Source of the DNA: Lachnospiraceae bacterium
Lineage (GTDB): Bacteria > Bacillota > Clostridia > Lachnospirales > Lachnospiraceae
Assembly: GCA_003507655.1 (NCBI GenBank)
Contig: DNUZ01000006.1
Coordinates: forward strand, 38,969 to 92,364
Reading direction: 5' to 3'
Length of the DNA: 53,396 nt
Part shown: piece by piece, positions 15,294-29,785 of the stretch
Numbering within the stretch: the stretch's first letter is position 1
How the letters are laid out: each line of letters starts with the position of its first letter
The notes under the pieces: generated by a model
Databases searched by the model: none
Told to the model about the DNA's origin: nothing
The model's input: only the letters and a program-made list of their open reading frames with translations
Translations under genes and position numbers: made by a program

Positions 15294-15366
15294 CCCTTTT
15301 TTTCCATTTTATATTTTCTTTATAAAGTTATAATTCTAAAGATTTTGTGAAGAATTTCTGCATGGA

Positions 15367-15395
15367 TTGACAAACAAAATGCTTAAAATTATAAT
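15367..15395 (+). promoter_or_regulatory. Consensus sigma-A promoter
   Basis: A perfect TTGACA at 15367-15372 and a perfect TATAAT at 15390-15395 are separated by 17 bp. It drives the rhomboid-like gene, whose ATG is about 37 nt from the predicted start. Confidence 0.88.
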
Positions 15396-15439
15396 GTGTT
15401 AAATATAAGGTTAAAAATTCCAGACAAATGAGGTGCAAG

Positions 15440-16294
15440 ATGAATTATCTGAATAAATTAGAACGAAAGATTGGAAAATATGCAATTCCCAACCTGAGCC
15501 TTTGGCTTGTAGTAACCTATGCACTCGGTTATCTGATGATGTATATGACACCGGGAATCATCAGTTATCTGATGTTAGAACCGGCAATGGTGCTGCGAGG
15601 TCAGGTGTGGAGACTGGTTACATGGGTGTTGATTCCACCGTCTACAGGCAACATCTTTTTCTATATTATTATGATTATGCTGTATTATTCCTTAGGAACG
15701 GCATTAGAGCGTACCTGGGGAACCTTCCGTTTTAATGTCTATATCTTCGGAGGCATGATATTTACGGTAATCGGAGCATTTGTGGCATATGGATTTTTAA
15801 GTGTCACAGGTGGTCTGACCATTGGAATCGGTTATTATGTCACAACCTATTACATCAACATGGCAATCTTTTTAGCATTTGCGGTCTGCTTTCCGAATAT
15901 GCAGATTCTGTTGTGGTTCATTATTCCGGTAAGAATGAAGTGGATGGCATATGTCTACGCGGCTTTGACCATTTATGATTTTGTTACAACCGGAGCAGTG
16001 GGAAGAATCTCCATTGCGGCAGCACTTTTGAACTTCCTGATTTTCTATCTGTCTACCAGAAATTATCAGAGGGTATCGCCAAAAGAAGTGCATAGAAAGT
16101 ATGTATTTAAGACACAGATGCGGGATGCAGAGATGAGACATTCCGGCGGTGTAACCAAGCATAAATGCGCAGTTTGCGGAAGAACGGAAAAGGATGATCC
16201 GACTTTGGAATTCCGTTTCTGTTCCAAATGTGACGGTAATTATGAATACTGTCAGGATCATTTGTTTACACATGAGCATATTAAGCGGAGTTAG
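15440..16294 (+). CDS. Rhomboid-like membrane protein with zinc-ribbon tail
   Basis: This 284-residue protein has about six transmembrane segments with a rhomboid-like arrangement. The block LEPAMVLRGQVWRLVTWVLIP resembles the L1-region signature seen before the catalytic core of rhomboids. The GxSG serine motif and the partner histidine of active rhomboid proteases are not seen, so it may be an inactive (pseudo-) rhomboid. The C-terminus is soluble and has paired cysteines (HKCAVCGR and FCSKCDGNYEYCQDH), which looks like a zinc ribbon. The start is the ATG at 15440 with a GAGGTG SD, preferred over the ATG at 15428. Function is unknown. Confidence 0.72.
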   Translation: MNYLNKLERKIGKYAIPNLSLWLVVTYALGYLMMYMTPGIISYLMLEPAMVLRGQVWRLVTWVLIPPSTGNIFFYIIMIMLYYSLGTALERTWGTFRFNVYIFGGMIFTVIGAFVAYGFLSVTGGLTIGIGYYVTTYYINMAIFLAFAVCFPNMQILLWFIIPVRMKWMAYVYAALTIYDFVTTGAVGRISIAAALLNFLIFYLSTRNYQRVSPKEVHRKYVFKTQMRDAEMRHSGGVTKHKCAVCGRTEKDDPTLEFRFCSKCDGNYEYCQDHLFTHEHIKRS

Positions 16295-16329
16295 AGATTA
16301 TTTAAGCATCATCAAATAGAGGGCTTACA

Positions 16330-16358
16330 TTGACAAAATTCTCCTGAAATCATATAAT
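16330..16358 (+). promoter_or_regulatory. Consensus sigma-A promoter of glnS
   Basis: TTGACA at 16330-16335 and TATAAT at 16353-16358 have a 17-bp spacer. The spacer contains the left arm (16341-16350) of an inverted repeat whose right arm covers the glnS SD. Confidence 0.9.
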
Positions 16359-16386
16359 AAAAGCGATTGAGAAGAGATTTCAGGAG
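16341..16386 (+). repeat. Inverted repeat linking the glnS promoter spacer to its SD
   Basis: CTCCTGAAAT at 16341-16350 is the exact reverse complement of ATTTCAGGAG at 16377-16386. The right arm contains most of the AGGAGG SD at 16382-16387. RNA started at the glnS promoter (about 16365) lacks the left arm. Only RNA read through from the upstream gene would form the hairpin and hide the SD. Confidence 0.7.
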
Positions 16387-16396
16387 GATTTAGTTT

Positions 16397-18070
16397 ATGG
16401 AAGGCGGTACAGTTTCCAAGAATTTTATTGAACAGATTATTGATAAAGATATAGAGGAAGGAAGATGTGAAGAAGTCGTTACACGTTTCCCTCCGGAGCC
16501 AAACGGTTATCTGCATATCGGACATGCCAAGTCCATCTTATTGAATTACGGACTTGCAGAAGAATATCATGGCAAATTTCATATGCGTTTTGACGATACC
16601 AATCCGACAAAGGAAAAGGTGGAATTCGTCGAGTCTATCAAGGCGGACATCCAGTGGTTAGGAGCAGACTGGGGTGACAGCCTTTTCTTTGCATCTGACT
16701 ATTTTGAGCAGATGTACGAAGCAGCAGTTAAATTAATTAAAAAAGGAAAAGCATATGTCTCTGATTTATCGGCAGAGGAGATTCGTGAGTACCGTGGAAC
16801 ACTGACAGAGCCGGGCAAAGATGATCCGTCCTGCAATCGGAGTGTGGAAGAGAATTTAGCACTCTTTGAGGATATGAAGAACGGAAAATTTAAGGATGGA
16901 GAAAAGGTTTTGCGTGCGAAAATTGATATGGCATCTCCGAATATCAATATGCGTGACCCGGTCATCTACCGTGTGGCACATATGACGCATCACAGAACAG
17001 GTGACACCTGGTGCATCTACCCGATGTATGATTTTGCACATCCGATTGAGGATGCCATTGAAGGAGTCAGCCATTCGATCTGTACCTTGGAATTTGAGGA
17101 TCACAGACCACTCTATGACTGGGTAGTGCGTGAGTTAGAATATGAGAAACCACCAAAACAGATTGAGTTTGCCAAGCTCTACCTGACCAATGTGGTAACA
17201 GGAAAGCGTTATATTAAAAAACTGGTAGAAGATGGAATTGTAGACGGTTGGGATGATCCGAGACTGGTATCTATCGCAGCACTCAGAAGAAGAGGTTTTA
17301 CACCGGAATCCATCAAGCGTTTTGTAGAGCTGTGCGGAATCTCAAAGAGCAACAGTTCTGTAGACTATGCCATGTTAGAGTATTGTATCCGTGAGGATTT
17401 AAAGATGAAAAAGCCAAGAATGATGGCAGTCTTAGATCCGATCAAATTGGTGATTGACAATTATCCGGAAGGCGAAGTGGAGTATTTAGATGTTGCTAAC
17501 AATTTAGAAAATGAAGAACTTGGCAGCAGAAAAGTACCGTTCTGCCGGGAACTTTACATCGACAGAGATGATTTTATGGAAGAACCTCCAAAGAAATATT
17601 TCCGTCTGTTTCCGGGAAATGAAGTGCGTCTGATGCATGCATATTTTGTAAAATGCGAGAGTTTTGTAAAAGACGAGAACGGAAAAGTGATCGAGGTGCA
17701 TTGTACCTATGATCCTGAGACAAAGCAGGGAACAGGATTTACCGGACGTAAGGTAAAAGGAACCATCCACTGGGTTCCTGCACCATTTGCAAAGAAATGC
17801 GAGGTACGCCTTTATGAGAATCTTGTAGATGAAGAAAAAGGCGTTTATAATAAAGAGGACGGAAGTCTGAATCTGAATCCGGATTCCTTAAAAGTGTTAA
17901 AAGATTGTTATGTAGAGCCGGAGCTTGCAAAAGCAGAGCCATATGACAGTTTCCAGTTTGTACGGCAGGGATATTTCTGTGCCGATGCAAAGGATTCCAC
18001 ACCGGAGCATCCGGTATTCAACCGTATTGTTTCATTAAAGAGTTCATTTAAATTACCGGCTCAGTCATAG
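16397..18070 (+). CDS. glnS: Glutaminyl-tRNA synthetase
   Basis: The 557-residue enzyme charges tRNA-Gln with glutamine. It carries the class I signature [16 protein letters not shown], with the HIGH motif at 40-43. The [18 protein letters not shown] block is present, as is the GlnRS-specific C-terminal anticodon-binding beta-barrel region ([11 protein letters not shown]). The KMSKS loop is not canonical: the expected place reads [10 protein letters not shown] before GWDDPRL. The rest of the [17 protein letters not shown] block is conserved, so the assignment holds. The start is ATG with AGGAGG 9 nt upstream. The gene has its own consensus promoter. It is followed closely by the DUF2225 and MocR genes, probably in one operon. 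Confidence 0.96.
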
Positions 18071-18090
18071 CCGGATTTGGGGGTCATCAT

Positions 18091-18951
18091 ATGAATTTAT
18101 TATCAGGATTAGAAAAGTTTGGACTGGAAATTTCAGAAGATATGGATATCTTTGAAGAGGACAAGCCAAAGACAAGTGCAAGCACAGAAGCAGCCGGAGA
18201 AAAGCCGGATATTCCGACAGAGGATATGTTTTTATTGGAAAAAGGCATCCGTTGTCCGGTCTGTGATAAAGTGTTTAAGACAAAGATGATTAAGAACGGA
18301 AGGGTAAAGCGTTTAGAGTCTGATAAGGACTTAAGACCGCGTCATCAGTATATTGATACTTTAAAGTATGATATATGTTCCTGCCCGCATTGCGGTTATA
18401 CGGCAATGACCCGTTTCTTTCCGCATATCACCAGTATACAGAGCAAATTGATCAAAGAAAACATCTGCTCAAAGTTTCATGCACAGATTGAGCCGGAACC
18501 GGCAGTATATGATTATGACCGTGCGTTAGAAAGATATAAACTGTCACTGTTCAATACGATCGTTAAAAAAGGCAAGACCAGTGAAAAAGCATATACCTGT
18601 CTGAAGATCGCATGGCTCTATCGTGGCAAAGCCGAGACACTGGATGCTGCAACAGAGGAAGGCAAGGCAGCGATCGCAGAATGTAAAAAGGAAGAGGAAG
18701 CTTTTTACAAACAGGCATATGACGGTATGTTAAAAGCAGTCAGCACCGAGATGTTCCCAATCTGTGGAATGGATCAGGGAACGGTAGATTATCTGTTAGC
18801 AACGATGTCAATCCATTATAAAAAGTACGATGTTGCGTCAAAACTCCTTGCAGGTATCTTAGCATCCAATACGGCAGGAAGACAGATGAAGGACAAGGCA
18901 CTGAATCTGAAAGAAGAAGTAGTTGCAGAATTAAAAAAGGGGAGAGGTTAA
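18091..18951 (+). CDS. DUF2225 family protein
   Basis: This 286-residue soluble protein belongs to the DUF2225 family. It has an N-terminal acidic stretch, then two zinc-knuckle-like pairs: CPVCDKVFKTK near 52 and CSCPHCGYTAM near 93. A helical tetratricopeptide-like C-terminal half follows. The family's function is unknown. The cysteine pairs suggest metal binding. It begins 20 nt after glnS and is followed 7 nt later by the MocR regulator, so it is probably part of the glnS operon. Confidence 0.8.
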   Translation: MNLLSGLEKFGLEISEDMDIFEEDKPKTSASTEAAGEKPDIPTEDMFLLEKGIRCPVCDKVFKTKMIKNGRVKRLESDKDLRPRHQYIDTLKYDICSCPHCGYTAMTRFFPHITSIQSKLIKENICSKFHAQIEPEPAVYDYDRALERYKLSLFNTIVKKGKTSEKAYTCLKIAWLYRGKAETLDAATEEGKAAIAECKKEEEAFYKQAYDGMLKAVSTEMFPICGMDQGTVDYLLATMSIHYKKYDVASKLLAGILASNTAGRQMKDKALNLKEEVVAELKKGRG

Positions 18952-18958
18952 ACAGACA

Positions 18959-20377
18959 GTGAATGAAATGATGATTCCACTGTCACACGATGAAAAAAAT
19001 CCGCTGTATCAACAGATATATGACCATATCAGGATCGAGATCATGGACGGTAAGATTCCCCAAGGAGAGAAACTGCCGTCTACTCGTTTTTTATCTTCCC
19101 ATTTGCAGGTGAGCAGAAGTACGGTAGAACTTGCTTATGAGCAGCTTGTATCGGAAGGTTACATAGAGGCACAGCCATACCGCGGATATTACGTCAGTGA
19201 TGTCAGTGATTTATTAGACTTAAAAGAAAACAGCCAGCAGCCAAAGGAAGAAGAGCCAAAACGTGCTAAGAACCGGATGTTGGAAACACACATTGACTTT
19301 TCACCTTTTGCCGTGGACTTAGAGCATTTTGCATTTAATGCATGGAGAAAGGTCAATAAGAATCTGCTCAGCACAGACAATGCCGATTTGCTGACCGCAG
19401 GAGATGGTGCAGGCGAGCCGGAGTTTCGTGAGGAAATCTGTAACTATCTCTATCAGTCTCGTGGTGTTATCTGTGAGCCTTCCCAGATTATCGTGGGTGC
19501 AGGAAACGAATACCTGCTGATGCTGTTATCCCAGATTTTAGGTGCAGACAGACGCGTGGCAATGGAGAGTCCGACTTATGTGCAGGCATATGAGACTTTT
19601 TTGAATCTGGGATATCAGGTGTGTGCAGTAGAGATGGATGCCCAGGGCATCAGCATGGAGCAGCTTCGCAGTGAACAGGCGGATATTGCATATGTGATGC
19701 CGTCACATCAGTTCCCAATGGGAACCGTCATGCCGATGAAACGGCGTATGGAGCTGTTAAAATGGGCGGCAGAGGATGAGAACCGGTATCTGATAGAAGA
19801 TGACCATGACAGTGAATTTCGTTATAAAGGAAAACCAATTCCTTCGTTGCAGGGTTCCGACCAGAATGAAAAGGTCATCTATCTTGGAACATTTTCAAAG
19901 AGTATTGCTCCGGCAGTGCGTGTCAGCTATTTAGTGCTGCCGAAAAAATTAGTAAAAGTCTATACCGAAAAATGCGGTTTTTATGCATCAACCGTTCCTA
20001 AAATTCAGCAGATGACCATTTGCAACTTTATGAAAGAGGGCTATTTTGAACGTCATCTGAATCGTATGCGGAGCAGTTACAAAAAGAAGCATGACTTTTT
20101 GATGGATGAAATTAAGAAAAGAAAATGGATACGGAAGGTCTATGGAGATAATGCGGGACTGCATGTCATTGCAGAGATTGAGTCGCATTTTTCGGATGAG
20201 GAACTGACAAAGTTAGCACAGGGGATTGGAATCCGTATCTATCCGATTTCAGAATACTATATAGATAAAAACAAAGTACCGGAATACCCGGCAATCCTTT
20301 TAGGATATGGGGGGCTGACAGAAAAAGAGATAGAGCAGGGATTTCGGGAACTGGACAAAATTATGTTATTTTTTTAG
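18959..20377 (+). CDS. MocR-type GntR regulator with aminotransferase domain
   Basis: The 472-residue protein joins an N-terminal GntR winged helix to a class I/II aminotransferase-like domain. The winged helix covers about 1-75 (NPLYQQIYDHIRIEIMDGKI, then LPSTRFLSSHLQVSRSTVELAYEQL). The lysine expected to bind pyridoxal phosphate is in YLGTFSKSIAPAVRVSYL. MocR proteins use the PLP domain as an effector sensor, controlling for example vitamin B6 or GABA genes. The regulon here is not known. The start is GTG at 18959, about 11 nt after GGGGAGAGG. A LytTR response-regulator gene follows after 21 nt. Confidence 0.9.
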   Translation: MNEMMIPLSHDEKNPLYQQIYDHIRIEIMDGKIPQGEKLPSTRFLSSHLQVSRSTVELAYEQLVSEGYIEAQPYRGYYVSDVSDLLDLKENSQQPKEEEPKRAKNRMLETHIDFSPFAVDLEHFAFNAWRKVNKNLLSTDNADLLTAGDGAGEPEFREEICNYLYQSRGVICEPSQIIVGAGNEYLLMLLSQILGADRRVAMESPTYVQAYETFLNLGYQVCAVEMDAQGISMEQLRSEQADIAYVMPSHQFPMGTVMPMKRRMELLKWAAEDENRYLIEDDHDSEFRYKGKPIPSLQGSDQNEKVIYLGTFSKSIAPAVRVSYLVLPKKLVKVYTEKCGFYASTVPKIQQMTICNFMKEGYFERHLNRMRSSYKKKHDFLMDEIKKRKWIRKVYGDNAGLHVIAEIESHFSDEELTKLAQGIGIRIYPISEYYIDKNKVPEYPAILLGYGGLTEKEIEQGFRELDKIMLFF

Positions 20378-20398
20378 CAAAGAAATGCGAGGGTGGTT

Positions 20399-21112
20399 AT
20401 GAAAAGAATAAGGATAGCAATTTGTGATGATGATTCAATTGGCAGGGGATTGTTGCAGGAAAGTCTGGAATATTTACTGCAGGAAAATAACCTGCAGGCA
20501 GACATCAGCAGTTATTGCAGCGGTCAGGAACTGTTACGGGAACAAAACAGATATGATATTTTGTTTTTGGATATTAGAATGCCTAAAATCAATGGAATTC
20601 GGACGGCAGAGAAATATCGGGAGTGGTATGAAGATACGATCATTATTTTTCTGACATCTTATGAAGATTATGTTTTTGAAGGTTATAAAGTCAATGCATT
20701 TCGTTATCTGAAGAAACCAATGGAACAGGAAAAATTGCGGGAGGCATTGCTGAGTGCAGTATCTAAGTTAGAAAAAGAATACGAGATTGAACTCTGGGAT
20801 GAGGAAGGACTGCATATTGTCAGACCCAAAGATATTATTTATGTGGAGACAAGTGGAAGAAACGTCATTGTACGGACCGTGGAAGAGGATTATTGCGTGA
20901 AAATGGGGATTACGCAGTTTGCCGAAAATCTGAATGGAACGGATTTTATATCTCCACACCAGTCTTATTATGTTAACATGCGTTATATCAAAGAATTTAA
21001 TAAGCAGGAAGCAATTTTAGTAAATGGAGAAAAAGTTAAGATAAGTTGTAAAAAGTACGCACAATTTAGGGATATCTACTGCGAATACCGTAGAAATCGA
21101 AGAAATCACTAA
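20399..21112 (+). CDS. LytTR-family response regulator (first)
   Basis: The 237-residue protein has a receiver domain (about 1-120) with the acidic pair in ICDDDS and the phospho-acceptor aspartate in ILFLDIRMPKINGIRTAEKY. The conserved FLTSYEDYVFEGYKV and K in YLKKP are present. The C-terminal LytTR DNA-binding domain covers about 135-237 (IIYVETSGRNVIVRT and SPHQSYYVNMRYIKEF). The chosen ATG at 20399 follows GAGGGTGG; the GTG at 20393 overlaps that SD. It follows the MocR gene in the same direction with no kinase of its own beside it. It could share the AgrC-like kinase encoded at 22103. Confidence 0.92.
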   Translation: MKRIRIAICDDDSIGRGLLQESLEYLLQENNLQADISSYCSGQELLREQNRYDILFLDIRMPKINGIRTAEKYREWYEDTIIIFLTSYEDYVFEGYKVNAFRYLKKPMEQEKLREALLSAVSKLEKEYEIELWDEEGLHIVRPKDIIYVETSGRNVIVRTVEEDYCVKMGITQFAENLNGTDFISPHQSYYVNMRYIKEFNKQEAILVNGEKVKISCKKYAQFRDIYCEYRRNRRNH

Positions 21113-21133
21113 AGAAAAACACTGAAATGTTGC

Positions 21134-21199
21134 TTTTGTGTCAAAATCAACTGCTTTTATGTAAATCCTGTTGAAAAATAGTTATCAATATGCAAGAAT
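21134..21199 (+). promoter_or_regulatory. Direct-repeat promoter C (putative LytTR-controlled)
   Basis: Two near-identical segments, TGCTTTTGTGTCAAA from 21131 and TGCTTTTATGTAAAT from 21152, are 21 bp apart (12 of 15 identical). The core of the second (21155-21163) starts 16 bp before TTGAAA at 21171-21176. An extended -10, TGC-AAGAAT at 21191-21199, follows after a 17-bp spacer. The geometry equals that of the two promoters near agrB. It would drive the 21-codon ORF at 21231. Confidence 0.55.
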
Positions 21200-21230
21200 A
21201 TAGACGGCTAGAAGAGAGGAGGGGGAGCAG

Positions 21231-21296
21231 ATGATTTTATTTAGTTATTACTGCCAGAGCAAAGAGTGTTTATATTTACGATTTTGGCGTCAATAG
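21231..21296 (+). CDS. Small ORF of 21 codons, possible peptide
   Basis: The ORF encodes MILFSYYCQSKECLYLRFWRQ, 21 residues with two cysteines and many aromatic residues. I do not recognise it. Support for translation is an AGGAGG SD at 21217-21222, in a purine tract, 8 nt before the ATG. It also lies 24 nt downstream of the predicted start of promoter C and is closed by a strong hairpin at 21309-21339. Together these look like a dedicated short transcription unit inside the quorum-sensing locus. It could be a signal or effector peptide, a leader peptide for the next regulator gene, or simply unannotated noise. Coding selection cannot be judged from one sequence. Confidence 0.45.
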   Translation: MILFSYYCQSKECLYLRFWRQ

Positions 21297-21308
21297 TGAT
21301 AGAGGGAA

Positions 21309-21339
21309 ACAGGGATGACATGAGTTGTGTTATCCCTGT
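21309..21339 (+). terminator. Hairpin after the 21-codon ORF
   Basis: ACAGGGATGACA at 21309-21320 pairs with TGTTATCCCTGT at 21328-21339, 12 bp with one G-T pair and a 7-nt loop. Only CTTT follows, so termination would be partial and read-through could supply the second LytTR gene. Confidence 0.6.
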
Positions 21340-21393
21340 CTTTATGTGGAGAAAAACAGAGGGAACATATAAGTGAGGAAAAGGGTTTGAGAG

Positions 21394-22116
21394 ATGTATC
21401 ATATATTTATTTGTGATGATGAAAAAAGGTTTACAGAAGTATTAGAAAAACGTGTAGAAACATGTTTGAAGGAACAGGGCCAAAGTTATGAGATACAGAT
21501 ATTCTATAATGGAATAGAAATGTTTCAGGCAATGCAGAAAAAAGCACCGGAAATATTGTTGCTGGATATTGATATGCCGGAAATCTCAGGAATGGAACTG
21601 GCGGAACAGATTTTTAGCAGTAATATGAATACCAATGTGATCTTTGTGACAAACAGAGATGATCTGGTATTTCAGGCAATACATTACCAGCCATTTCGTT
21701 TTATACGGAAGGAAAAGCTGAATCAGGAACTGGATGAGGCAATTTGTCATTTGATTAATAAATTAGAAAAAGATGAGAAAATGTGGGAAGTTCAGACAAA
21801 GAATGGAACAGAAATTCTTGCGTTGAAAAATATTTTATATATAGAAAGCTGCAAACATTATTTACGGATCAGGCATATGGACGGCGAGTGTGAGATGCGG
21901 GAAAAAATCTCAAATTTGGAAAAGTGGATGAGTAACTATGGTTTTGTACAGACACATAGAAGCTATCTAGTCAATGTTCGCTATATGAAAATGGTTCGTG
22001 CAAATGAGGTAGAACTGGACAATGGAGAAATCCTTTCTGTCAGCAGAGATAAAGCACAGGAAGTGAAAAAGAAACAAATGATATATCTGAGGAGTTTTGC
22101 ATATGCAAATAGTTAG
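21394..22116 (+). CDS. LytTR-family response regulator (AgrA-like)
   Basis: The 240-residue protein has a receiver domain with ICDDEKRF and the phospho-acceptor aspartate in ILLLDIDMPEISGMELAEQI. A LytTR DNA-binding domain follows at about 135-235 (ILYIESCKHYLRIRH and FVQTHRSYLVNVRYMKMV). LytTR regulators bind pairs of short direct repeats in promoters. The ATG at 21394 follows a TGAGGAAAAGGG stretch. The 3' end overlaps the start of the histidine kinase gene by 14 bp, so this is almost certainly the kinase's cognate regulator. Together with the kinase, AgrB and AgrD it forms an agr-type circuit. Confidence 0.93.
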   Translation: MYHIFICDDEKRFTEVLEKRVETCLKEQGQSYEIQIFYNGIEMFQAMQKKAPEILLLDIDMPEISGMELAEQIFSSNMNTNVIFVTNRDDLVFQAIHYQPFRFIRKEKLNQELDEAICHLINKLEKDEKMWEVQTKNGTEILALKNILYIESCKHYLRIRHMDGECEMREKISNLEKWMSNYGFVQTHRSYLVNVRYMKMVRANEVELDNGEILSVSRDKAQEVKKKQMIYLRSFAYANS

Positions 22117-23416
22117 TGAGATTGCTGAAATTGTAGCAAGTGCTATTGACTGTGTGTTAGTATTATGGTTTTTGACAAGTCACTTTGGAAAAAAGAAAAC
22201 AATAGAATGGTGGAAGTATGCAGTATGGTTTGTAATTTTATTTATTCCAAGTCATTTTATGGGAGAAATATTTAATTTACAAAGTATTGTAGTAATCCTG
22301 ATTGTTACCAGCTTCTCAATGATTTATTTGCAGGGAAACAGTATTGAAAAGTTAATCGTACCCCTGATTCTGTATATCATGTTGGCATTTGTAAATATTA
22401 TGGTGATACAAGTAATATCTGTGTTAAGCAAAAGTCCTATGGAAGTGCTCATCTCAGGGAATGGTATTCTTAGAATCCTTGTATTGTGCATCAGTAAGGT
22501 CACAGTGATTTTGACATTTGTGATAGCAGAAAGAACATTTAGTAAAAAGCATTATTTCAAAAAAGAAGAGTATATTTTTGGAGCAATCTTATATATTACG
22601 TTTTTTATTGTTGCAGTGCTTACCTTTAAAATAGTCGGAACCGTTGAAATGACTTTTAGAGAACAGCTGATTTTCTTTATATTGACAATGCTGTTGTTAG
22701 TGATCAATAGCTTTATGTTCTGGTTGATCCGGAGAATGAACTATCAGAACAGATGTGAATTGGAAAATGAAGTTTTAAAAGTGCAGTTAGAACAACAGGA
22801 AAGTCAGATTCATAATACAGAATTATTGTATCAGAATACAAGAAAAATGCGTCATGACATGAAACACTATTTTACGACATATTTGCAATTGCTAAGAGAT
22901 GGTGAAACAGAAGTTGTTATGAAAGAGATGCAGAGCATTTTAGAGACAGAGTTAGAAGCAGAAAATGTGTTTTATATGGACTGCAGGATGGTGAATGCAG
23001 TTATTAATCAAAAGGCAGCCCTTTGCAAGAAGAACAAAATATCTTTAGAAGTGCAGATTACAGGAGAATTTCATTGGGAAAATGAAAGTAATATTGCGAT
23101 TTTATTATCAAATCTCTTAGATAATGCCATTGAAGCGGAAATACAGCAGGAGAGTAAAAAGGAAATCCGTTTAAAAATGTTCATTTATAAAGAGATGGTC
23201 AATATCATTGTGGAAAACTATATTTTGAAATCTGTTTTGGGAGAAAATCCAGAGTTAAAAACAACAAAAAAGGAAAAACAGGGACATGGGATTGGGATAG
23301 AGAGTGTCAAAGAACTGGTTCGTAGAGAAGAAGGAGATTTGGAAATTTTTGAAGAAAACAATTATTTTATTTCACAGATATTGATTCCATGCAAAGCAAA
23401 CAAGATTTGTGGGTAG
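22103..23416 (+). CDS. AgrC-like sensor histidine kinase
   Basis: The 437-residue protein has about six to seven hydrophobic segments in residues 1-215, then a coiled-coil linker (about 215-245). A GHKL-type kinase module follows: the phospho-acceptor region is TRKMRHDMKHYFTTYLQLL, the N box is LLSNLLDNAIEAE and the G box is GHGIGIESVKELVRR. This layout is that of AgrC and other peptide-pheromone receptors. I chose the ATG at 22103, 8 nt after GAGGAG, over the TTG at 22097. It overlaps the preceding response regulator gene, showing translational coupling. The likely ligand is the thiolactone peptide from the agrD gene downstream. Confidence 0.92.
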   Translation: MQIVSEIAEIVASAIDCVLVLWFLTSHFGKKKTIEWWKYAVWFVILFIPSHFMGEIFNLQSIVVILIVTSFSMIYLQGNSIEKLIVPLILYIMLAFVNIMVIQVISVLSKSPMEVLISGNGILRILVLCISKVTVILTFVIAERTFSKKHYFKKEEYIFGAILYITFFIVAVLTFKIVGTVEMTFREQLIFFILTMLLLVINSFMFWLIRRMNYQNRCELENEVLKVQLEQQESQIHNTELLYQNTRKMRHDMKHYFTTYLQLLRDGETEVVMKEMQSILETELEAENVFYMDCRMVNAVINQKAALCKKNKISLEVQITGEFHWENESNIAILLSNLLDNAIEAEIQQESKKEIRLKMFIYKEMVNIIVENYILKSVLGENPELKTTKKEKQGHGIGIESVKELVRREEGDLEIFEENNYFISQILIPCKANKICG

Positions 23417-23463
23417 TCATTGGAACTATACGGAATTCCCAGAATTCTCGACAAAAATCAACA

Positions 23464-23527
23464 ATTCATGCCTAAAAAAGACGGTTCATGCCAAGAGTAT
23501 TGAAAAAGCGAAAAAAAGGAATATGAT
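23464..23527 (+). promoter_or_regulatory. Direct-repeat promoter A (putative LytTR-controlled)
   Basis: ATTCATGCC at 23464-23472 and GTTCATGCC at 23484-23492 lie 20 bp apart. TTGAAA at 23500-23505 begins 16 bp after the start of the second repeat, and TATGAT at 23522-23527 follows after 16 bp. The predicted start is near 23534. No substantial ORF follows, but a terminator-like hairpin does at 23667-23715. Confidence 0.62.
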
Positions 23528-23533
23528 AAAGGA

Positions 23534-23715
23534 AGTTATGAAATGTTATGCAGCTTTTGGGAAATGAACGGATAGAATAGCGTCAGTCTATGTAATAGAA
23601 TCGGAAACCTAATCATAAAACTTCATTTGAAGAAGCAGGAGATATGACATAGCAGCAAACAAAAGGGAAATGCATATTTTGTGAAAAAATCACAGAGTAT
23701 ACATTTTCTTTTTTT
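23534..23715 (+). ncRNA. Candidate small RNA of the agr-like locus
   Basis: A transcript from promoter A would start near 23534 and end at the hairpin plus T-tract at 23715, about 182 nt. It holds no reading frame longer than 20 codons with a usable SD. A second small hairpin is possible at about 23622-23634 (CTTCA and TGAAG). The layout recalls staphylococcal RNAIII, a regulatory RNA controlled by AgrA, but there is no sequence similarity that I can recognise. The alternative is that this is just an upstream promoter with an attenuator for agrB. Transcription has not been shown. Confidence 0.45.
23667..23715 (+). terminator. Terminator-like hairpin in the kinase-agrB gap
   Basis: A long stem runs from GAAATGCATATTTTGTGA (from 23667) to TCACAGAGTATACATTTTC (ending 23708) around an A-rich loop. 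It has one mismatch, a bulge and some G-T pairs. Seven T residues follow at 23709-23715. Confidence 0.65.
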
Positions 23716-23792
23716 GATGAAGTGTAAAAATATAAAAAGATTGGATTAGATAAAAGTTGCAGAAAAGGTGTAAAAATAGAGAAAAAACGGTA

Positions 23793-23856
23793 ATTCATGC
23801 CAGAAAAATGTCATTGGTGCCATAGGTATTGCAAAAATAGTCAGAGTTGTTAAGAT
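23793..23856 (+). promoter_or_regulatory. Direct-repeat promoter B of agrB-agrD
   Basis: ATTCATGCC at 23793-23801 and ATTGGTGCC at 23813-23821 lie 20 bp apart. TTGCAA at 23829-23834 starts 16 bp after the second repeat begins, and TAAGAT at 23851-23856 follows after 16 bp. The predicted start near 23863 leaves a 15-nt leader with the SD TGAGG before agrB. The left repeat is identical to that of promoter A. Confidence 0.65.
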
Positions 23857-23877
23857 GTAGAAGAAGGATGTGAGGCA

Positions 23878-24456
23878 ATGTCTAAAGTTGCAGAAAAGGT
23901 AGCGGACTCCTTATACCGGAAAGATTATATCAGTGAAGAAGAAAAAGAGATTTATTCATATGGTTATGAAATACTCATTGATAATATCGGAAAAACTTTT
24001 CTGTTACTAATGGTAGGTGCGATCATTCATCAGTTCGTTGCAACCTTGGTATTTGTAGTAGTATTTACTACATTGCGCAGCTGCTGTGGAGGCTATCATG
24101 CATCAAAGACGTGGCAGTGTAATTTACTTACAGTTATTCTTTGGGGAATAGTGATAGTTGGAACATACACAGAGGCAATCATTAAACAATGTGAAGCATT
24201 GGCCATTGCAATTGCTGTTGTAAGTGAGTTGGTGATTTACCAATGTGCACCAGTGGAGCATCAGAATAAGAAGTTAACGAATGAAAAAAAAGAGAGGAAC
24301 AGAAGATGTGCATTAGGACTAGGCATGTTATATGGAATCTTAATATTACTACTTACTTTTTCGTTAACTAAGATAGCAATTGCCTTAGCGCTGACGGTAT
24401 TAGAAGTCGTAATGTTGATGATAATACCAGGTGAAGGGAGGAGCAATGAGCCATGA
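23878..24456 (+). CDS. agrB: AgrB-like autoinducer-processing protease
   Basis: The 192-residue membrane protein has the AgrB signature LRSCCGGYHASKTWQC. The catalytic histidine is H74 and the cysteine is C81, with the H-x6-C spacing of staphylococcal AgrB. Four or more hydrophobic segments flank it. AgrB cuts the AgrD precursor at its C-terminal side and forms the cyclic thiolactone intermediate. The gene has its own direct-repeat promoter and a TGAGG SD. Its stop codon overlaps the agrD start (ATGA at 24453-24456), so the two are translationally coupled. Length is typical. Confidence 0.95.
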   Translation: MSKVAEKVADSLYRKDYISEEEKEIYSYGYEILIDNIGKTFLLLMVGAIIHQFVATLVFVVVFTTLRSCCGGYHASKTWQCNLLTVILWGIVIVGTYTEAIIKQCEALAIAIAVVSELVIYQCAPVEHQNKKLTNEKKERNRRCALGLGMLYGILILLLTFSLTKIAIALALTVLEVVMLMIIPGEGRSNEP

Positions 24457-24590
24457 AGAAACAGAATCTTTTCGGAGAGATGGTAAAAAAAGCAGGAGCA
24501 AAAGCAGCTGTATCTACAGCAAATAAAGCATCTGTATTTTACTGCTACCAGCCAAAAGAGCCAAAAGGCTTAGAGAAATTCAACAAATAA
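24453..24590 (+). CDS. agrD: AgrD-like cyclic thiolactone autoinducer precursor
   Basis: This 45-residue peptide precursor starts at the ATG overlapping the agrB stop. Its SD is GAAGGGAGG just upstream inside agrB. The N-terminus MKKQNLFGEMVKKAGAKAA is an amphipathic helix of the AgrD type. The middle STANKASVFYCYQPK carries the only cysteine, C31. The C-terminal tail EPKGLEKFNK fits the conserved (Y)xPKxPKxL recognition tail that AgrB cuts. By analogy the signal would be a thiolactone ring closed by C31 onto a residue a few positions later, probably within CYQPK, but the exact ends cannot be read from sequence. Confidence 0.9.
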   Translation: MKKQNLFGEMVKKAGAKAAVSTANKASVFYCYQPKEPKGLEKFNK

Positions 24591-24600
24591 GATAAAAGAC

Positions 24601-24870
24601 TCCTGCCGCGAAATGGAACAACTTTAGTACATAAGGCGGCAGGAAAGCAAGCAGAACATGAAGGTATACCCATGAATTTCAATGCTTTTTTCTGCATCAG
24701 TACAACTGCAACCTATTACGATCAATCCATTAATAAATGTCCAAATATGAGGTAAGCCCAGACCGAATATAAAGGACACAGGACATAGCTATTGAAATTC
24801 ATGGAGATGTATTTATGTTTCTATATATTACCAGCATCCGACGGAAGCCAGCAATGGCTTCCGTCTTATT
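24601..24870 (+). other. Strongly structured non-coding stretch after agrD
   Basis: There is no gene here, but there are three nested or adjacent inverted repeats. TCCTGCCGC at 24601-24609 pairs with GCGGCAGGA at 24636-24644. CCATGAATTTCAAT at 24670-24683 pairs perfectly with ATTGAAATTCATGG at 24791-24804. Inside it ATGTCC at 24737-24742 pairs with GGACAT at 24781-24786. A terminator-like hairpin follows at 24840-24865. This looks like a structured RNA or a complex 3' UTR of the agr operon. The strand is not certain. I could not match it to a known RNA family by eye. Confidence 0.5.
24840..24870 (+). terminator. Terminator hairpin closing the agr region
   Basis: GACGGAAGCCA at 24840-24850 and TGGCTTCCGTC at 24855-24865 form a perfect 11-bp stem with a GCAA tetraloop. 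TTATTT follows. The short T-tract suggests incomplete termination. Confidence 0.7.
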
Positions 24871-24929
24871 TGCGGGAACATTTGCCGGGAACCCGATTTT
24901 CAAAATAACTTTTAAAAACAGGAAAATTG

Positions 24930-24938
24930 TGGTATAAT
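24930..24938 (+). promoter_or_regulatory. Extended -10 promoter of the CarD gene
   Basis: TGG-TATAAT at 24930-24938 is an extended -10 element. The -35 place is only T/A-rich (about 24910). The predicted start near 24945 gives a leader of about 100 nt. Confidence 0.65.
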
Positions 24939-24987
24939 ACCTACTATAGGAAGATATTTTCTGTTTTTAAAGGTTATGATACAAAAT

Positions 24988-25024
24988 CCGTTTCACTTAC
25001 GAAAGAGAGTGCGGCGGTTTTTTT
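24988..25024 (+). terminator. Terminator in the CarD leader (attenuator candidate)
   Basis: CCGTTTCACT at 24988-24997 pairs with AGTGCGGCGG at 25008-25017 (one mismatch, two G-T pairs), and seven T residues follow at 25018-25024. It lies between the promoter and the ATG, so it can only stop transcription before the gene. Confidence 0.65.
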
Positions 25025-25043
25025 GTGGAAGAAAGGAGAGGCA

Positions 25044-25541
25044 ATGTTTAAAGAAGGAGATTTCATAATTTATGGAAGCAATGGTGTATGTCAGGTAGAG
25101 CATATAGGAAGCATGGATTTACAGGGTGTTCCGGGTGATAAAATGTATTATACATTAGTTCCGGTTTATGAAGAAAAGAGTCGTTTGTTTACACCGGTGG
25201 ACAACCACAAAGTAGTCATGCGTCCGGTAATCAGTAAAAAAGAAGCATGTGAACTGATAGACCATATGCAGGAAATGCAGGTATTTGAGATACAGAATGA
25301 AAAGAACAGAGACACTGTATTCAAAGAGGCATTGAAAACCGGGGATTGTGAAGAACTCGTTCGTGTGATCAAGACAATATACGAGAAAAAGCAGGAGCGT
25401 AAGGCACAGGGGAAAAAAGTGACTGCCGGAGATGAGCGTTATTTCAAGCTGGCAGAAGAGCATTTGTACGGAGAGCTTGCGATTGCTCTTGGAATTGAAA
25501 AGGACAAGGTTAGTTCCTATATTGAGAAAAGAATCGCGTAA
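25044..25541 (+). CDS. CarD family transcriptional regulator
   Basis: The 165-residue protein starts MFKEGDFIIYGSNGVCQVEHIG, the CarD N-terminal RNA-polymerase-interacting Tudor-like domain (about 1-60). A helical C-terminal domain follows (about 65-165), which in CarD/CdnL binds promoter DNA and stabilises the open complex. The length matches CdnL-type proteins. I chose the ATG at 25044 with an AAGGAGAGG SD. A longer frame from 24927 starts upstream of the leader terminator and inside the promoter. The gene stands alone between the agr region and a chemoreceptor gene. Confidence 0.88.
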   Translation: MFKEGDFIIYGSNGVCQVEHIGSMDLQGVPGDKMYYTLVPVYEEKSRLFTPVDNHKVVMRPVISKKEACELIDHMQEMQVFEIQNEKNRDTVFKEALKTGDCEELVRVIKTIYEKKQERKAQGKKVTAGDERYFKLAEEHLYGELAIALGIEKDKVSSYIEKRIA

Positions 25542-25615
25542 AATGTACAAAAAAATATAAGTGTCAAAAAATTGCAAAAGAATGTGAAAAAAGTACCAGA
25601 GGATAAAAGGTTCTA

Positions 25616-25624
25616 TGATATAAT
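25616..25624 (+). promoter_or_regulatory. Extended -10 promoter of the first chemoreceptor
   Basis: A perfect extended -10, TGA-TATAAT at 25616-25624, lies 62 nt before the ATG. The -35 region is poor. Short arms GTACC and GGTAC flank it (about 25593 and 25627) and could be an operator. Confidence 0.6.
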
Positions 25625-25686
25625 GAGGTACATGGTTAAGTAATGATGAATTTTTTGGTTAAAATGAGAGAAAGGGATTAGGTACA

Positions 25687-27405
25687 ATGGAAAGAAAAAG
25701 AAAAATGTCTATCATGGTGCGCCTGTTACTGATGGTGATCTCGCCATGCCTGTTGCTTGGAATTGCAATGACACTTTATTCCGGGTGGAACATGCAAAGG
25801 GGAATGCAAAAGACTACGTTGGACGGAATGCGTGCAACGGATTATGCAGTCTTAGAGATGTTTAAAAACATAGCAGACGGTGATTTTAAGCAGGATGCAA
25901 AAGGCAATGTTTACAGAGGAGAGTACAAGATTTCTGATAACAATGAGTTAGCAGATTATATCAAGAACAAGACAGATGTAGATGTTACTTTTTTCTATGG
26001 GGATACCCGTGTGTTGACTTCCTTAAAGGATAAAAAAACAGGGGATCGACTGATAGGAACCACAGCATCTAAAGAAGTTACGGATAAAGTCTTAAAAAAT
26101 GGAAAAGAATACTCAGATACGGGTATTGTGATCAATGAAAGACCATACTACGGATATTATGTGCCGGTAAAGAATTCGGATGACAGTATCATAGGAATGG
26201 TGTTTGTCGGAAGAGAGAGCAAAGATATTAATGCCTTTATCAAAAGCAAGTCAAGCGCCGTATTTCTTATGGCACTGATCATTATGGCAATGGCATCGAT
26301 CGCAGCATGGATCACCTCAAGATCCGTAGCGGTCAGCGTGCGTGGAACAGAAAAGGTAATCGGTGCGTTAGCAGACGGTAATCTGACCCTGGATGTGGAA
26401 GAAAAGCTGTTAGGGCGAAACGATGAAATCGGTGATATGGCACGTTCCGTCGAAAAGTTAAAACAGGAGCTTTTTGAGATCATCAGTGATATCAAAAAAT
26501 CTTCAGGAATACTGAATGCATCGGGAGAATCTCTAAGTCAGATGGCAGAAAACTCCAGTGCAACAACGAACGAAATGAGTAAGGTCATAGAGGATTTATC
26601 CAAGGGTGCAGTCTCACAGGCAGAAGAGATTGAAGAAGCATCGGTACATATCGGAGAGATGGGACATGTCATTGAAGAGATTGTAAGCAGTGTGGATGGT
26701 TTGGATGATACATCTGCGAAAATGAAAAATGCCAGTGATGAGTCTTCTGTCATTATCCGTCAGCTTTCCGAATCCAATGACAGGACGACACAGGCGATCA
26801 ACCGTATCGGAAGACAGATTGAAGCAACGAACGATTCTGTACAGATGATCCATGCAGCAGTAGAACTGATCACTTCGATCGCGAGTCAGACAAGCCTGTT
26901 AGCGTTAAATGCAAGTATTGAAGCGGCAAGAGCCGGAGAGCATGGAAAAGGATTTGCAGTAGTGGCATCCGAGATCCAGAAATTAGCAGAGCAGTCGAAT
27001 GACTCGGCGGAAAAGATCAAAGACATCATCCGCGATTTGTTAAGTGAGGCAGAACAAACGGTAAACGTCATGCATGAAGTAGAAGATATCGTTGCACAGC
27101 AGCAGGAAAAATTAGAAGAGACAAAGACAAAATTTGTATCCGTAGCAGACGGAGTCAATGCATCCAGAAGCGAGACAGAGGCAATCCAGAGTCATACGCA
27201 GATATGTGATCAGTCAAGAGCCAGAATTATTGATGCAGTTCAAAATTTATCAGCAATTTCACAGGAAAATGCAGCAAGTACAGAACAGACGACAGCATCT
27301 ATGGCAGGTCTGAATGAGGCAATCCGTCAGTTGTCTGTGGCAGCAAAAGAATTGCAGGGCTTATCCGAGGATTTAGAGAAGGATATGTCATTCTTTACGA
27401 TTTAG
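25687..27405 (+). CDS. Methyl-accepting chemotaxis protein (first)
   Basis: The 572-residue chemoreceptor has TM1 at about 9-30 and an extracellular Cache-like sensor domain at about 40-190 ([17 protein letters not shown] and [22 protein letters not shown]). TM2 is at about 196-215, then a HAMP region and a long cytoplasmic signalling helix bundle. The signalling tip reads [22 protein letters not shown] near 400, the CheA/CheW-binding hairpin. It shares domain order and much sequence with the receptor at 30484. The ligand is unknown. A cupin gene follows after 28 nt, probably co-transcribed. Confidence 0.95.
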
Positions 27406-27433
27406 AAATGATGATCAAAGTGGAGGAAATACA

Positions 27434-27784
27434 GTGGTAAAAAAATATTCAGAGATTACACATATTTTTAATGAACACATGAAAGGCGGAGATGGAACCG
27501 TAGAAGTGATCCCGTCCGTGGTACAGGGAGAATATGAGAGTGATGCAAATGTCATTGCACGTTTGATCTTAAAACCGGGCTGTTCCCTCGGAATGCATGA
27601 GCATATCGGAGAAGAAGAGATCATTACGGTACTTCACGGAACAGCGGAATATAATGACAACGGCGAAAGCAGTACGGTAGAAACAGGCGATGTCTGCATC
27701 TGCAAAAGCGGTGGCAGACACAGCATTGCAAATGCATCGCCAAGTGAAGATTTAGAGTTAATGGCAGTGATCATTCAGGTGTAG
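27434..27784 (+). CDS. Cupin domain protein
   Basis: This is a 116-residue single-cupin protein. The first cupin motif is GCSLGMHEHIGEEEIITVLHG, with two histidines and a glutamate as likely metal ligands. The second motif lies around VCICKSGGRHSIANAS. Small cupins of this kind bind metal or small ligands, and no specific reaction can be given. The start is GTG at 27434, with GGAGG 7 nt upstream. It sits 28 nt after the chemoreceptor. Its 3' end runs into the tail of the convergent aspA pseudogene, overlapping it by 14 bp. Confidence 0.85.
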   Translation: MVKKYSEITHIFNEHMKGGDGTVEVIPSVVQGEYESDANVIARLILKPGCSLGMHEHIGEEEIITVLHGTAEYNDNGESSTVETGDVCICKSGGRHSIANASPSEDLELMAVIIQV

Positions 27785-28380
27785 TACCTGACTTTGCCTG
27801 ATAATACTGTTCTTCTGCTTTATCATATCCGATTTCAGTGCTCTTGTGGTAGAGATCTACCCGGGAGCATTTTAATGTCTCTAAGCAGGATTGTTCATCT
27901 GCAAGAATCCCATCAATACAATTTTTTTGAAAAAGTATTACGGTGTCACGGAGTAGTTCTAAACTTTCTAAAAGACTGTCCGCGGTTCACATCGTCTAAA
28001 GGGTGAATCGTATCATAATTTCCCAGAGCCTGTCCTAAGACAGTCAACGCAAGATTAGCAATGACCTCATTGACATTCATATTTGTGGAAGTGCCGGCAC
28101 CTCCCTGTAAGGCACTGGTACAAAAAGCATCATCCACATCCCCGGCTAAGATCCGGTCGCAGGCGCAGAGGATAGCATCCCATTTTTGGGATTCCTCCGG
28201 GTGCAGTTCCCGGTAAGATAAGGCAGCCGCTTTTTTTACCTGCACCATGGCGTAGATCAGGGAAAGATTTGTAGTATGATAGGAAGTAATAAAATTTTCT
28301 TTGGCACGAAGCGTCTGTAATCCGTAAAGAGTATCATCGGAAAGGCTGCGTGTTCCTAACATATCATGTTCTGTTCTCAT
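27771..28380 (-). pseudogene. aspA: Aspartate ammonia-lyase with large internal deletion
   Basis: The N-terminal about 133 residues are clear aspartase: GLQTLRAKENF, then GGAGTSTNMNVNEVIAN, then IHPLDDVNRGQS, where active enzymes continue STND. After that point the frame breaks. In the next frame a C-terminal aspartase-like stretch follows directly, starting LLESLELLRDTVILFQKNC and ending near GYDKAEE. The central about 240 residues, including the catalytic loop region, are therefore missing, with a frame change at the junction. The start overlaps the hydF stop (ATGA), so it was once coupled to hydF, as aspA-like genes commonly are in Clostridia. It is not functional. Confidence 0.85.
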
Positions 28381-29618
28381 GACGGTTCCTCCGTAAGCAT
28401 CATAGATACTGCAGGAAACGGTTCAACGCTCCGCTTTAAGATGCCCTGGATATAGGCGATCAGGATACCGTAATTGGTCATAGGGATATTCTGATCCTTT
28501 GCACAGGCAAGGCGGTATTTCATTTCACGCTCATTTAACATACAGCCGCCGCAATGCACGATCATCTTATACGGTGAGAGATCTGTCGGAAATTCCGTGC
28601 CGGAGGAAAAGACAAATTCCGGTTCTTTTCCGGTATACTGCCGGATCCAGCGGGGCAGCTTGACACTGCCGATATCGTCACACTGTCTGTGATGAGTGCA
28701 GCCTTCGGAAACTAAAATTTTATCTCCGTCCTCAATCTGCTCTAGTGCAGTGACACCTTTGATCAGTGCCGGCAGATTTCCTTTATATCTTGCAAAGAGG
28801 ATAGAAAACGAAGTTAACATAATATCTGCCGGAGTGTCGGCAGATACCTTTGCAAAGACCTGACTGTCGGTAATGACAAGACGCGGTTTTTTGCCTAAGT
28901 GAGATAAAGTGTCGCGCAGTTCATATTCTTTGACAACAATGGCAGTTGCATCTGCCTCTAAGATGTCACGGATCGTCTGCTGCTGCGGCAGGATCAGTCT
29001 GCCCTTTGGAGCAGCCTTGTCGATCGGCACGACTAAAACCACAAAATCGGAAGGATGGATCAGGTCAGCAACGATCCGAAGTTTGGTATCTTCTGTTTTA
29101 GCGAGAGTTGCAATCTTTTCTTTGAGGGTATCGATCCCGGAAAGATCAGCCGTGCTGACAGATACAAAATCAATATGATGTTCTTTTAAATATTGAAGGT
29201 CTTTTGCAAGTGAAGCAGACGGGGCAAGGTCGGATTTGTTAAATGCCACGGCATAAGGAATCTGCTTTTTTTGGATATGCTCTATAAAAGCAAAATCCTC
29301 TTCGCAGAGTCCGAGAGATGCATCGACTACTAAGACAGCGGCATCCGATTTATTTAACACCTGATAACTTTTCTTTACGCGCAAAGCACCAAGCTCGCCT
29401 TCATCATCAATTCCCGGAGTGTCAATGACAACGACGGGTCCTAACGGGAGCAGCTCCATGGATTTTTGCACCGGGTCGGTAGTAGTTCCCTTAACGTCTG
29501 AAACAACGGCAAGATCCTGTCCGGTCACGGCATTTAAGACACTGGATTTTCCGGCATTCCGCCGTCCGAAAAAGCCGATATGGACACGTTCAGAAGATGG
29601 GGTCTGATTCATTTGCAT
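28377..29618 (-). CDS. hydF: [FeFe]-hydrogenase maturation GTPase HydF
   Basis: HydF is the scaffold on which the 2Fe subcluster of the [FeFe]-hydrogenase H-cluster is assembled by HydE and HydG. The 413-residue protein starts with a GTPase domain: G1 GRRNAGKSS at 18-26, G3 DTPGIDDEG, G4 NKSD. It ends in the Fe-S binding region with CTHH near 305 and HCGGC near 355, the expected pattern. The ATG at 29618 has GAGGAGG 7 nt upstream. It has a consensus promoter, back to back with that of apt. HydE, HydG and the hydrogenase are not in this window. Confidence 0.95.
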   Translation of the reverse strand: MQMNQTPSSERVHIGFFGRRNAGKSSVLNAVTGQDLAVVSDVKGTTTDPVQKSMELLPLGPVVVIDTPGIDDEGELGALRVKKSYQVLNKSDAAVLVVDASLGLCEEDFAFIEHIQKKQIPYAVAFNKSDLAPSASLAKDLQYLKEHHIDFVSVSTADLSGIDTLKEKIATLAKTEDTKLRIVADLIHPSDFVVLVVPIDKAAPKGRLILPQQQTIRDILEADATAIVVKEYELRDTLSHLGKKPRLVITDSQVFAKVSADTPADIMLTSFSILFARYKGNLPALIKGVTALEQIEDGDKILVSEGCTHHRQCDDIGSVKLPRWIRQYTGKEPEFVFSSGTEFPTDLSPYKMIVHCGGCMLNEREMKYRLACAKDQNIPMTNYGILIAYIQGILKRSVEPFPAVSMMLTEEPS

Positions 29619-29657
29619 AAGTATTCCTCCTCAAACACAGCATTTTTTATTCTTTTT

Positions 29658-29686: not shown

Positions 29687-29700
29687 TGTGTGCATTTGGT

Positions 29701-29729: not shown

Positions 29730-29785
29730 TAGTTTTGGATATGAATGGTAGAATACCAGAGAAAACAGAAGGGTGGAATATTTAC

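Follow-up and report, generated by a model that had tools for sequence, protein, structure and literature searches.

What does an agr-type quorum-sensing locus in the Lachnospiraceae control apart from its own signal genes? The question is raised by a 53,396-bp stretch of DNA from a Lachnospiraceae bacterium (assembly GCA_003507655.1, contig DNUZ01000006.1; the whole stretch is called the window below), which carries such a locus at positions 20,399 to 24,590. AgrB-like genes are common in the family (of 397 genomes sampled, 76 have a match to an AgrB profile at E 1e-12 or better), and a literature search, judged by its listings, turned up no study of what agr loci control in these bacteria. 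Our answer, which we hold to be probable, is that the window holds a self-contained agr circuit with three promoters read by LytTR proteins: B in front of agrBD, A in front of an RNAIII-like RNA, and a third promoter, C.

The initial annotation had pointed out three sites of one repeat and -35 design, and its coordinates agreed with the sequence throughout, for every repeat (six in all) and for each of the three -35 boxes. We scanned both strands of the window under its rule, which asks for two 9-mers at least 7/9 alike, with starts 20 or 21 bp apart, the second starting 16 bp before TTGNAA. The scan gave exactly the three sites and nothing else, all of them intergenic and on the coding strand:

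Positions 23464 to 23505, + strand: site A, with repeats ATTCATGCC (23464) and GTTCATGCC (23484) 20 bp apart and -35 box TTGAAA at 23500 (sequence and scan).
Positions 23793 to 23834, + strand: site B, with repeats ATTCATGCC (23793) and ATTGGTGCC (23813) 20 bp apart and -35 box TTGCAA at 23829 (sequence and scan).
Positions 21134 to 21176, + strand: site C, with repeats TTTTGTGTC (21134) and TTTTATGTA (21155) 21 bp apart and -35 box TTGAAA at 21171 (sequence and scan).

The annotation's statement that A and B share ATTCATGCC exactly is true of their first repeats and not of the second (GTTCATGCC versus ATTGGTGCC); within each site the two repeats are 8/9 alike in A and 7/9 alike in B. Markov-1 shuffles of the whole window gave a mean of 1.0 sites on both strands (40 shuffles), and those of the + strand of the 4.2-kb locus a mean of 0.10, with at least two sites in 1.1% and at least three in 0 of 1000. 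When the intergenic regions were shuffled (20000 times each), at least one site arose in 0.58% of cases for the C region and at least two in 0.03% for the agrC-agrB gap. These figures are post hoc because the scan rule was derived from A, B and C themselves, and hence an independent test was built from the promoters of relatives.

The relatives were distant agr loci (numbered L002 and so on): four came from genome contigs with AgrB identities of 29-34% (three contigs of metagenome-assembled genomes and one of Anaerocolumna aminovalerica, which we take to belong to the Lachnospiraceae) and the others from genomes of the family. Several have the gene order agrA-agrC-agrB-agrD, and L004, L025 and L029 combine that order with a site before agrB. 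The agrB promoter repeats are AAACATGCT/AAACATGTC followed by TATTGCAAT in L004, and in six further loci the repeats are followed by TATTGAAAA: AAACATGCC/AAACATGGT in L025, AAGTATGCC twice in L029, GTTTATGTT/TTTTATGAT in L030, TTTCGTTGC/TTTCATTCC in L033, TTTCGTTGC/TTTGGTTCC in L078 and, spotted by eye, AACTATGTT/AATCGTGCT in L027. A matrix pooled from these seven chosen loci (14 half-sites, L027 included and none from the window) placed A, B and C first, second and third among the 4161 positions scored on the two strands. Subsets of the loci gave matrices that ranked the same 4161 positions as follows: A 1 and B 2 with the LytTR2-like set (L004, L025, L027 and L029); A 1, C 2 and B 3 with the LytTR1-like set (L030, L033 and L078); C 1, A 2 and B 11 with L030 alone; and A 1, B 2 and C 7 with L033 plus L078. 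An automatic matrix of ten loci without L027, in which the L039 and L062 sites look spurious by eye in that register, gave A 1, B 2 and C 6 of 2812. Site A was thus first in five of six matrices and second with L030 alone, and its standing as a second site of the same LytTR family is upheld by matrices to which the window contributed nothing. Given these ranks, A and B are firmly predicted LytTR-type paired-repeat sites, and C is a probable one that may belong to the other LytTR protein of the locus.

Conservation of repeats and spacing, a check suggested with the initial annotation, was found in distant relatives for the design of B before agrB. Under the strict rule with offsets of 15-17 allowed, a site lies within 350 bp upstream of agrB in 10 of 56 loci (L004, L025 and L029 are among the ten), as against 1.04 expected from shuffles and 2 on the reverse strand; the loci are partly non-independent: L025, L083 and L084, for example, come from one genome, and L070 and L071 look near-identical. 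The 56 are what remained of 58 loci once L028 and L087, whose stretches were too short, had been taken out. The 58 themselves excluded L002 (agrB at the edge) and L005-L024 and L040-L058 (agrB stretches of at most 3.5 kb plus four GlnRS loci), nearly all of the short agrB stretches duplicating places covered at greater length under other numbers. Longer stretches were taken for 55 agrB places, and the remaining, weaker places were left out. In L032 a site with 9/9 identical repeats stands before agrD, outside the 350-bp limit.

A pattern modelled on the agrB sites of L004, L025 and L029 gave one exact match in each of their three genomes, always the agrB site. With two-mismatch hits included, the matches numbered 3, 9 and 12, versus 6, 1 and 5 for a backward control; the control was exceeded in two of the three genomes, so further diverged sites are possible there. 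Within the loci L004, L025 and L029 no A- or C-like unit was seen before agrB or agrA. The AgrB-profile searches covered 397, 116, 98, 2, 2, 392, 3 and 3 genomes, partly overlapping, with a best match at E 6.5e-39 (locus L006/L025), and we take none of the matches to be from the clade of the window. Viral contigs gave no match with AgrB, AgrC, LytTR2, LytTR1 or a site pattern, and plasmids and phages gave no DNA match.

Two relatives carry further paired repeats. In L074 (7144-8600, agrB on +) AATATCACA occurs twice, 20 bp apart, immediately after agrC and before a NusG/LoaP-like gene, which is followed by carrier-protein-like and adenylation-like open reading frames (ORFs); these genes were named by eye, and they form a possible agr-controlled biosynthetic cluster. 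In L062 (4100-4345, agrB on +) a second paired-repeat site precedes a separate agrD-like ORF after agrC, and GGGACATAAAATGTC is common to it and the agrB site.

The agr-type nature of the window locus is supported by AgrB, AgrD, two LytTR response regulators and a GHKL kinase, recognised with Pfam or NCBIfam models:

Positions 20399 to 21112, + strand: LytTR1, a response regulator with a LytTR domain (Pfam Response_reg 1.9e-18, LytTR 3.7e-18).
Positions 21394 to 22116, + strand: LytTR2, the AgrA-type response regulator (Pfam LytTR 1.2e-18), overlapping agrC.
Positions 22103 to 23416, + strand: AgrC-type GHKL histidine kinase (HATPase_c_5 2.4e-21; homologues in the same place in relatives).
Positions 23878 to 24456, + strand: agrB (Pfam AgrB PF04647, 1.5e-41, 142.3 bits, cut-off 23).
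Positions 24453 to 24590, + strand: agrD, a precursor of 45 residues adjoining agrB (TIGR04223, 38.7 bits, cut-off 19).

The kinase and the LytTR regulator are adjacent and both score above the cut-offs of their Pfam families (HATPase_c_5 and LytTR), and AgrD had no Pfam match. The Staphylococcus AgrA equivalog model scored 31.4 bits on LytTR2 (cut-off 400) and the Staphylococcus AgrC model 32.5 bits on the kinase (cut-off 500); as both lie below their cut-offs, the locus is not a Staphylococcus-type member. AgrB proteins with 54-93% identity to that of the window were found, two of these relatives being named as from Lachnospiraceae metagenome-assembled genomes, and the window GlnRS is 84-88% identical to the best among the matches listed in the sampled family. 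The search alignment (A2) held 14 of 66 AgrB matches plus the window protein and left out P0005, P0007 and P0009, which are frame-changed or shortened. These three close AgrB relatives have an internal deletion or frame change and could be loss-of-signal variants or assembly errors.

Site B is the predicted promoter of agrBD, because its -35 box opens 49 bp upstream of agrB and its design matches that of the agrB promoters of relatives. LytTR-type repeats at this promoter had been proposed in the initial annotation, and the same arrangement before agrB in relatives bears this out. A -10-like TAAGAT follows at 23851-23856; the -35/-10 pair falls below the threshold of our general promoter scan, which does not list B. 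If B is the agrBD promoter, positive feedback is likely.

Site A lies upstream of B in the same agrC-agrB gap and has the better -35/-10 pair (10/12 matches in the promoter scan, with -10 TATGAT at 23522-23527). It is followed by a predicted RNA unit:

Positions 23534 to 23715, + strand: predicted RNA of about 180 nt from A, its start placed from the -10 box and its end at a hairpin plus T run.

A promoter-like site, a stretch whose start-to-stop ORFs reach 12 codons at most, and a terminator are all present at A, which may mark an AgrA-driven RNA unit. The terminator (about 23663-23715) is a strong hairpin with a long T run; positions 23655-23720 fold at -22.2 kcal/mol, and 23530-23800 has a fold z of -2.44, with 4 of 200 shuffles as good. 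A consensus terminator scan did not list this hairpin. The gap, at 461 bp, has room for A and its terminated unit. In 40 of 58 relatives agrC stands directly before agrB with a gap of -4 to 455 bp, in every case shorter than that of the window; the three with gaps above 334 bp (L032, L085 and L095) hold a recognised agrD, and in the closest loci of the same order (L003, L004, L025, L027 and L029) the gap is 70-192 bp.

Sites A and B have 34 of 51 positions in common; no other place on the + strand of the window comes closer than 27. Between the A terminator and B, at 23753-23769, lies an exact 17-nt copy of the 5' coding end of agrB (23884-23900); among 500 Markov-2 shuffles, 2 had a longest repeat of 17. 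From the likeness of A and B and the agrB copy between them, we infer that the two arose by tandem duplication of the agrB promoter region. The simplest account of A would then be a unit analogous to P3/RNAIII, in which a short noncoding RNA is under the same control as agrBD. An Rfam scan of 15000-31000 gave no match at up to E = 1, and hence the predicted RNA is not recognised as an RNAIII homologue; a likeness to RNAIII in the way it works would be analogy only.

Site C starts 21 bp past LytTR1 and has a -10-like AAGAAT at 21194-21199; the promoter scan lists no other promoter-like match on the + strand from LytTR1 to agrA. Two features lie behind it:

Positions 21231 to 21296, + strand: small ORF MILFSYYCQSKECLYLRFWRQ, 21 codons plus stop, with a perfect Shine-Dalgarno sequence (AGGAGG) 8 nt before the ATG.
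Positions 21309 to 21339, + strand: terminator-like hairpin of 14 pairs with a weak T tail (CTTTATG), which separates the C unit from agrA; agrA begins 54 bp further on.

Positions 21300-21350 fold at -20.4 kcal/mol and 21205-21350 has a fold z of -2.03. The unit is either a mini-mRNA for a peptide or a leader of agrAC. A scan of the + strand for Shine-Dalgarno-led ORFs of 10-70 codons gave three ATG-started hits, the small ORF of C, agrD and an ORF at 4125, and the - strand gave two, of 10 and 11 codons. The hit at 4125 has 64 codons and by eye resembles the start of a cut-short methylated-DNA repair methyltransferase, possibly a frameshifted gene. Descent of the small ORF from agrD (YYC-QSKE versus FYCYQPKE) was considered and found unconvincing, with protein shuffle P values of 0.15, 0.05 and 0.03 at three gap costs, and at the DNA level the likeness between the C unit and agrD did not reach significance (shuffle P 0.18). 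By eye, agrA is preceded by similar leader-like stretches with a terminator-like hairpin in two relatives, at about 4640-4810 in L004 and within the final 250 bp ahead of 4070 in L025; in L004 there was no Rfam match near a gathering score.

It is possible, though we think it on the unlikely side, that C is a chance repeat unrelated to the LytTR proteins. The initial annotation had called C the weaker match, and so it proved: C was 66th of 4161 with the LytTR2-like matrix and trailed A and B with the automatic one, and its lead over the next position with the pooled matrix was small (18.3 versus 17.8). Against chance stand the first, second and third ranks of C with L030 alone, the LytTR1-like set and the pooled set, the roughly 0.6% (post hoc) probability that its intergenic region would contain a site of this kind, and its place on the right strand and at the right position with a -10, a Shine-Dalgarno sequence and a hairpin behind it. 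LytTR targeting of C, as claimed at the outset, therefore finds agreement in the geometry and in the LytTR1-like and pooled matrices and disagreement in the LytTR2-like matrix. C is possibly controlled by LytTR1.

In the circuit that we propose, AgrB and AgrD would make a cyclic peptide that AgrC would sense. AgrA (LytTR2, possibly with LytTR1) would bind the paired 9-bp repeats, the second of which starts 16 bp ahead of the -35 box. Once activated, AgrA would switch on B to give more AgrB and AgrD, a positive feedback, and would also switch on A, a diverged duplicate of B, to give a short terminated noncoding RNA functionally like the P3/RNAIII unit. C, which has the same geometry, would give a short transcript with the 21-codon ORF that ends at the hairpin before agrA, and read-through would feed agrAC. 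The sequences show the genes, the sites with their spacing, the hairpins and, in distant relatives, a conserved design before agrB; binding, the direction of regulation, transcription, the function of the RNA and the regulator that uses C are the parts proposed here.

The main alternative for A, though we think it unlikely, is an attenuated 5' leader of agrBD: A would be an upstream second agrBD promoter with read-through at 23715 tuning AgrB and AgrD, and C would be the agrAC leader with a leader peptide. There is precedent for this in L089 (3814-3975, agrB on +), where paired repeats are followed by a strong terminator hairpin and then agrB. The agr promoter of L089 may itself yield a terminated RNA or an attenuated leader, and the RNA from A could by the same token be a leader rather than a small RNA. 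The position of C as sole + strand promoter-like match before agrA and the weak T tail of its hairpin would also suit a leader. As for A, B lies downstream of the terminator and can drive agrBD alone, and the long T run at the A hairpin favours full termination, both of which argue against the leader.

A different question is which of the two LytTR proteins would read the sites. No kinase gene of its own adjoins LytTR1, which starts 21 bp past a MocR-type gene (18959-20377, named by eye) and shares 64 of 214 aligned positions with LytTR2. Its close kin form a small set of 11 full or near-full proteins (P0067-P0077, 62-99% identity) that tops the best 120 of 223 matches, and the nearest among the matches listed (99%) is named as from a Lachnospiraceae metagenome-assembled genome. 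LytTR2 is 35, 36, 38 and 32% identical over its full length to the agrA products of L004, L025, L029 and L027, and LytTR1 29, 30, 26 and 30%. That LytTR1 rather than AgrA is the main regulator of A, B and C, with AgrA acting elsewhere, seems improbable to us. The matrix built on the loci with a regulator that scores nearer to LytTR1 did rank A, C and B first, second and third, but that set has only three loci, two of them alike, with regulators about equally near both proteins (L078, 32 versus 30%; L033, 28 versus 27%; L030, incomplete, 30 versus 25%). The LytTR2-like matrix likewise put A first and B second, and LytTR2 overlaps agrC.

The likeness of A to B and the 17-nt agrB copy would also fit A as a non-functional relic, left when the agrB promoter and 5' end were duplicated in tandem and the copy was afterwards interrupted, but this is the least probable of the readings since A has better repeats than B (8/9 versus 7/9), a better -35/-10 pair and a clean terminator behind it.

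Several observations weigh against the three-promoter circuit, besides the L089 arrangement and the rank of C with the LytTR2-like matrix. Under the strict rule 46 of 56 relatives lack a site before agrB. Without its -35 term the LytTR2-like matrix put A at 9, B at 39 and C at 6517 and so did not single them out. The general promoter scan made 21 matches versus 19.6 in shuffles. The evidence of conservation comes from distant relatives and concerns the site before agrB, that is B, and not A, C, the RNA or the small ORF. Gaps of 200-334 bp between agrC and agrB are common in relatives (some may hide an unrecognised agrD), so the long gap alone is unremarkable. Finally, no convincing duplex emerged when the A RNA was scanned against seven local start regions, with z from -2.3 (best, at agrC) to +1.2, and antisense action on these regions was set aside.

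A bolder version of the circuit would have three cis outputs read by LytTR proteins: the signal operon from B, an RNAIII-like RNA obtained by promoter duplication from A, and from C a quorum-induced 21-residue peptide with two cysteines, read by the second LytTR regulator and feeding back on agrAC. We regard this as doubtful. If true, an RNAIII-type system would have arisen independently of Staphylococcus and with a second peptide output. Outputs that stand beside the signal genes in one locus are directly testable targets, and such a locus would show how duplication of the autoregulated promoter can give rise to an RNAIII-like output. The site model, 9-bp repeats 20-21 bp apart with the second 16 bp before TATTGAAAA, could serve in hunting agr regulons in related bacteria.

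Beyond agrD, an imperfect inverted repeat at 24655-24819 has 29-nt arms that are 79% complementary. The stretch 24650-24825 folds far better than its shuffles (z -5.2, 0 of 200) and could be an element like a miniature inverted-repeat transposable element or a structured RNA. It had no Rfam match up to E = 1, and a search that allowed up to 3 mismatches gave no second copy of its arm elsewhere in the window.

Among the arrangements closest to that of the window locus are those of the distant loci L004, L025 and L029, which share the agrA-agrC-agrB order and a site of the same design before agrB. In Staphylococcus aureus P2 drives the signal operon and P3 drives the regulatory RNAIII. According to PMC4227749, the P2 and P3 promoters of one intergenic region are preceded by two direct repeats that AgrA binds, the promoter-proximal repeat is centred near -60 and the -35/-10 spacers are 18 and 20. 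The window resembles this portrait in its LytTR regulator and in direct repeats before two promoters of one intergenic region (PMC4227749). The proximal repeat of site A lies near -46 of the predicted start with spacers of 16-17, in contrast to the -60 and 18/20 given in PMC4227749, and these differences make the arrangement related to that of S. aureus but not the same. Unlike in S. aureus, promoters A and B are tandem rather than divergent, and agrAC and agrBD are separate units. Unlike RNAIII, the RNA of the window is predicted at about 180 nt and has no Rfam match. The locus also has one site more, C, and one LytTR protein more.

Clostridioides difficile comes close in another way. According to PMC10602386, RgaR activates agrB1D1 and the small RNA spoZ through direct repeats, the critical G residue of each repeat lies at -51 and -72, 21 bp apart, and their change is reported to lower reporter activity about 5-fold. 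The kinase and regulator genes are non-contiguous there, and AgrD1 elicits no response from RgaS (PMC10602386). The likeness to RgaS-RgaR lies in an Agr-like regulator, agrBD plus a small RNA, and repeats 21 bp apart (PMC10602386). Unlike in C. difficile, agrA and agrC of the window are joined and adjoin agrBD, and the predicted RNA gene is inside the locus. The VirSR system of Clostridium perfringens has boxes of another sequence and is located apart from agrBD. Like the window circuit as proposed, VirSR is a two-component system that activates small RNAs, namely VR-RNA, VirT and VirU (PMC10602386). The view in the initial annotation that two extra outputs are not explained by known agr parts was thus overstated, given S. 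aureus P3/RNAIII and C. difficile RgaR (PMC10602386). Titles and abstract openings from the literature gave nothing on agr promoter sites or small RNAs in Lachnospiraceae, which does not prove that such work is absent. The idea of an Agr-like regulator acting on agrBD plus a small RNA is already published for a clostridial species (PMC10602386). What differs here is that the parts lie within one locus, with a duplicate promoter and a third unit that comes with a second LytTR gene.

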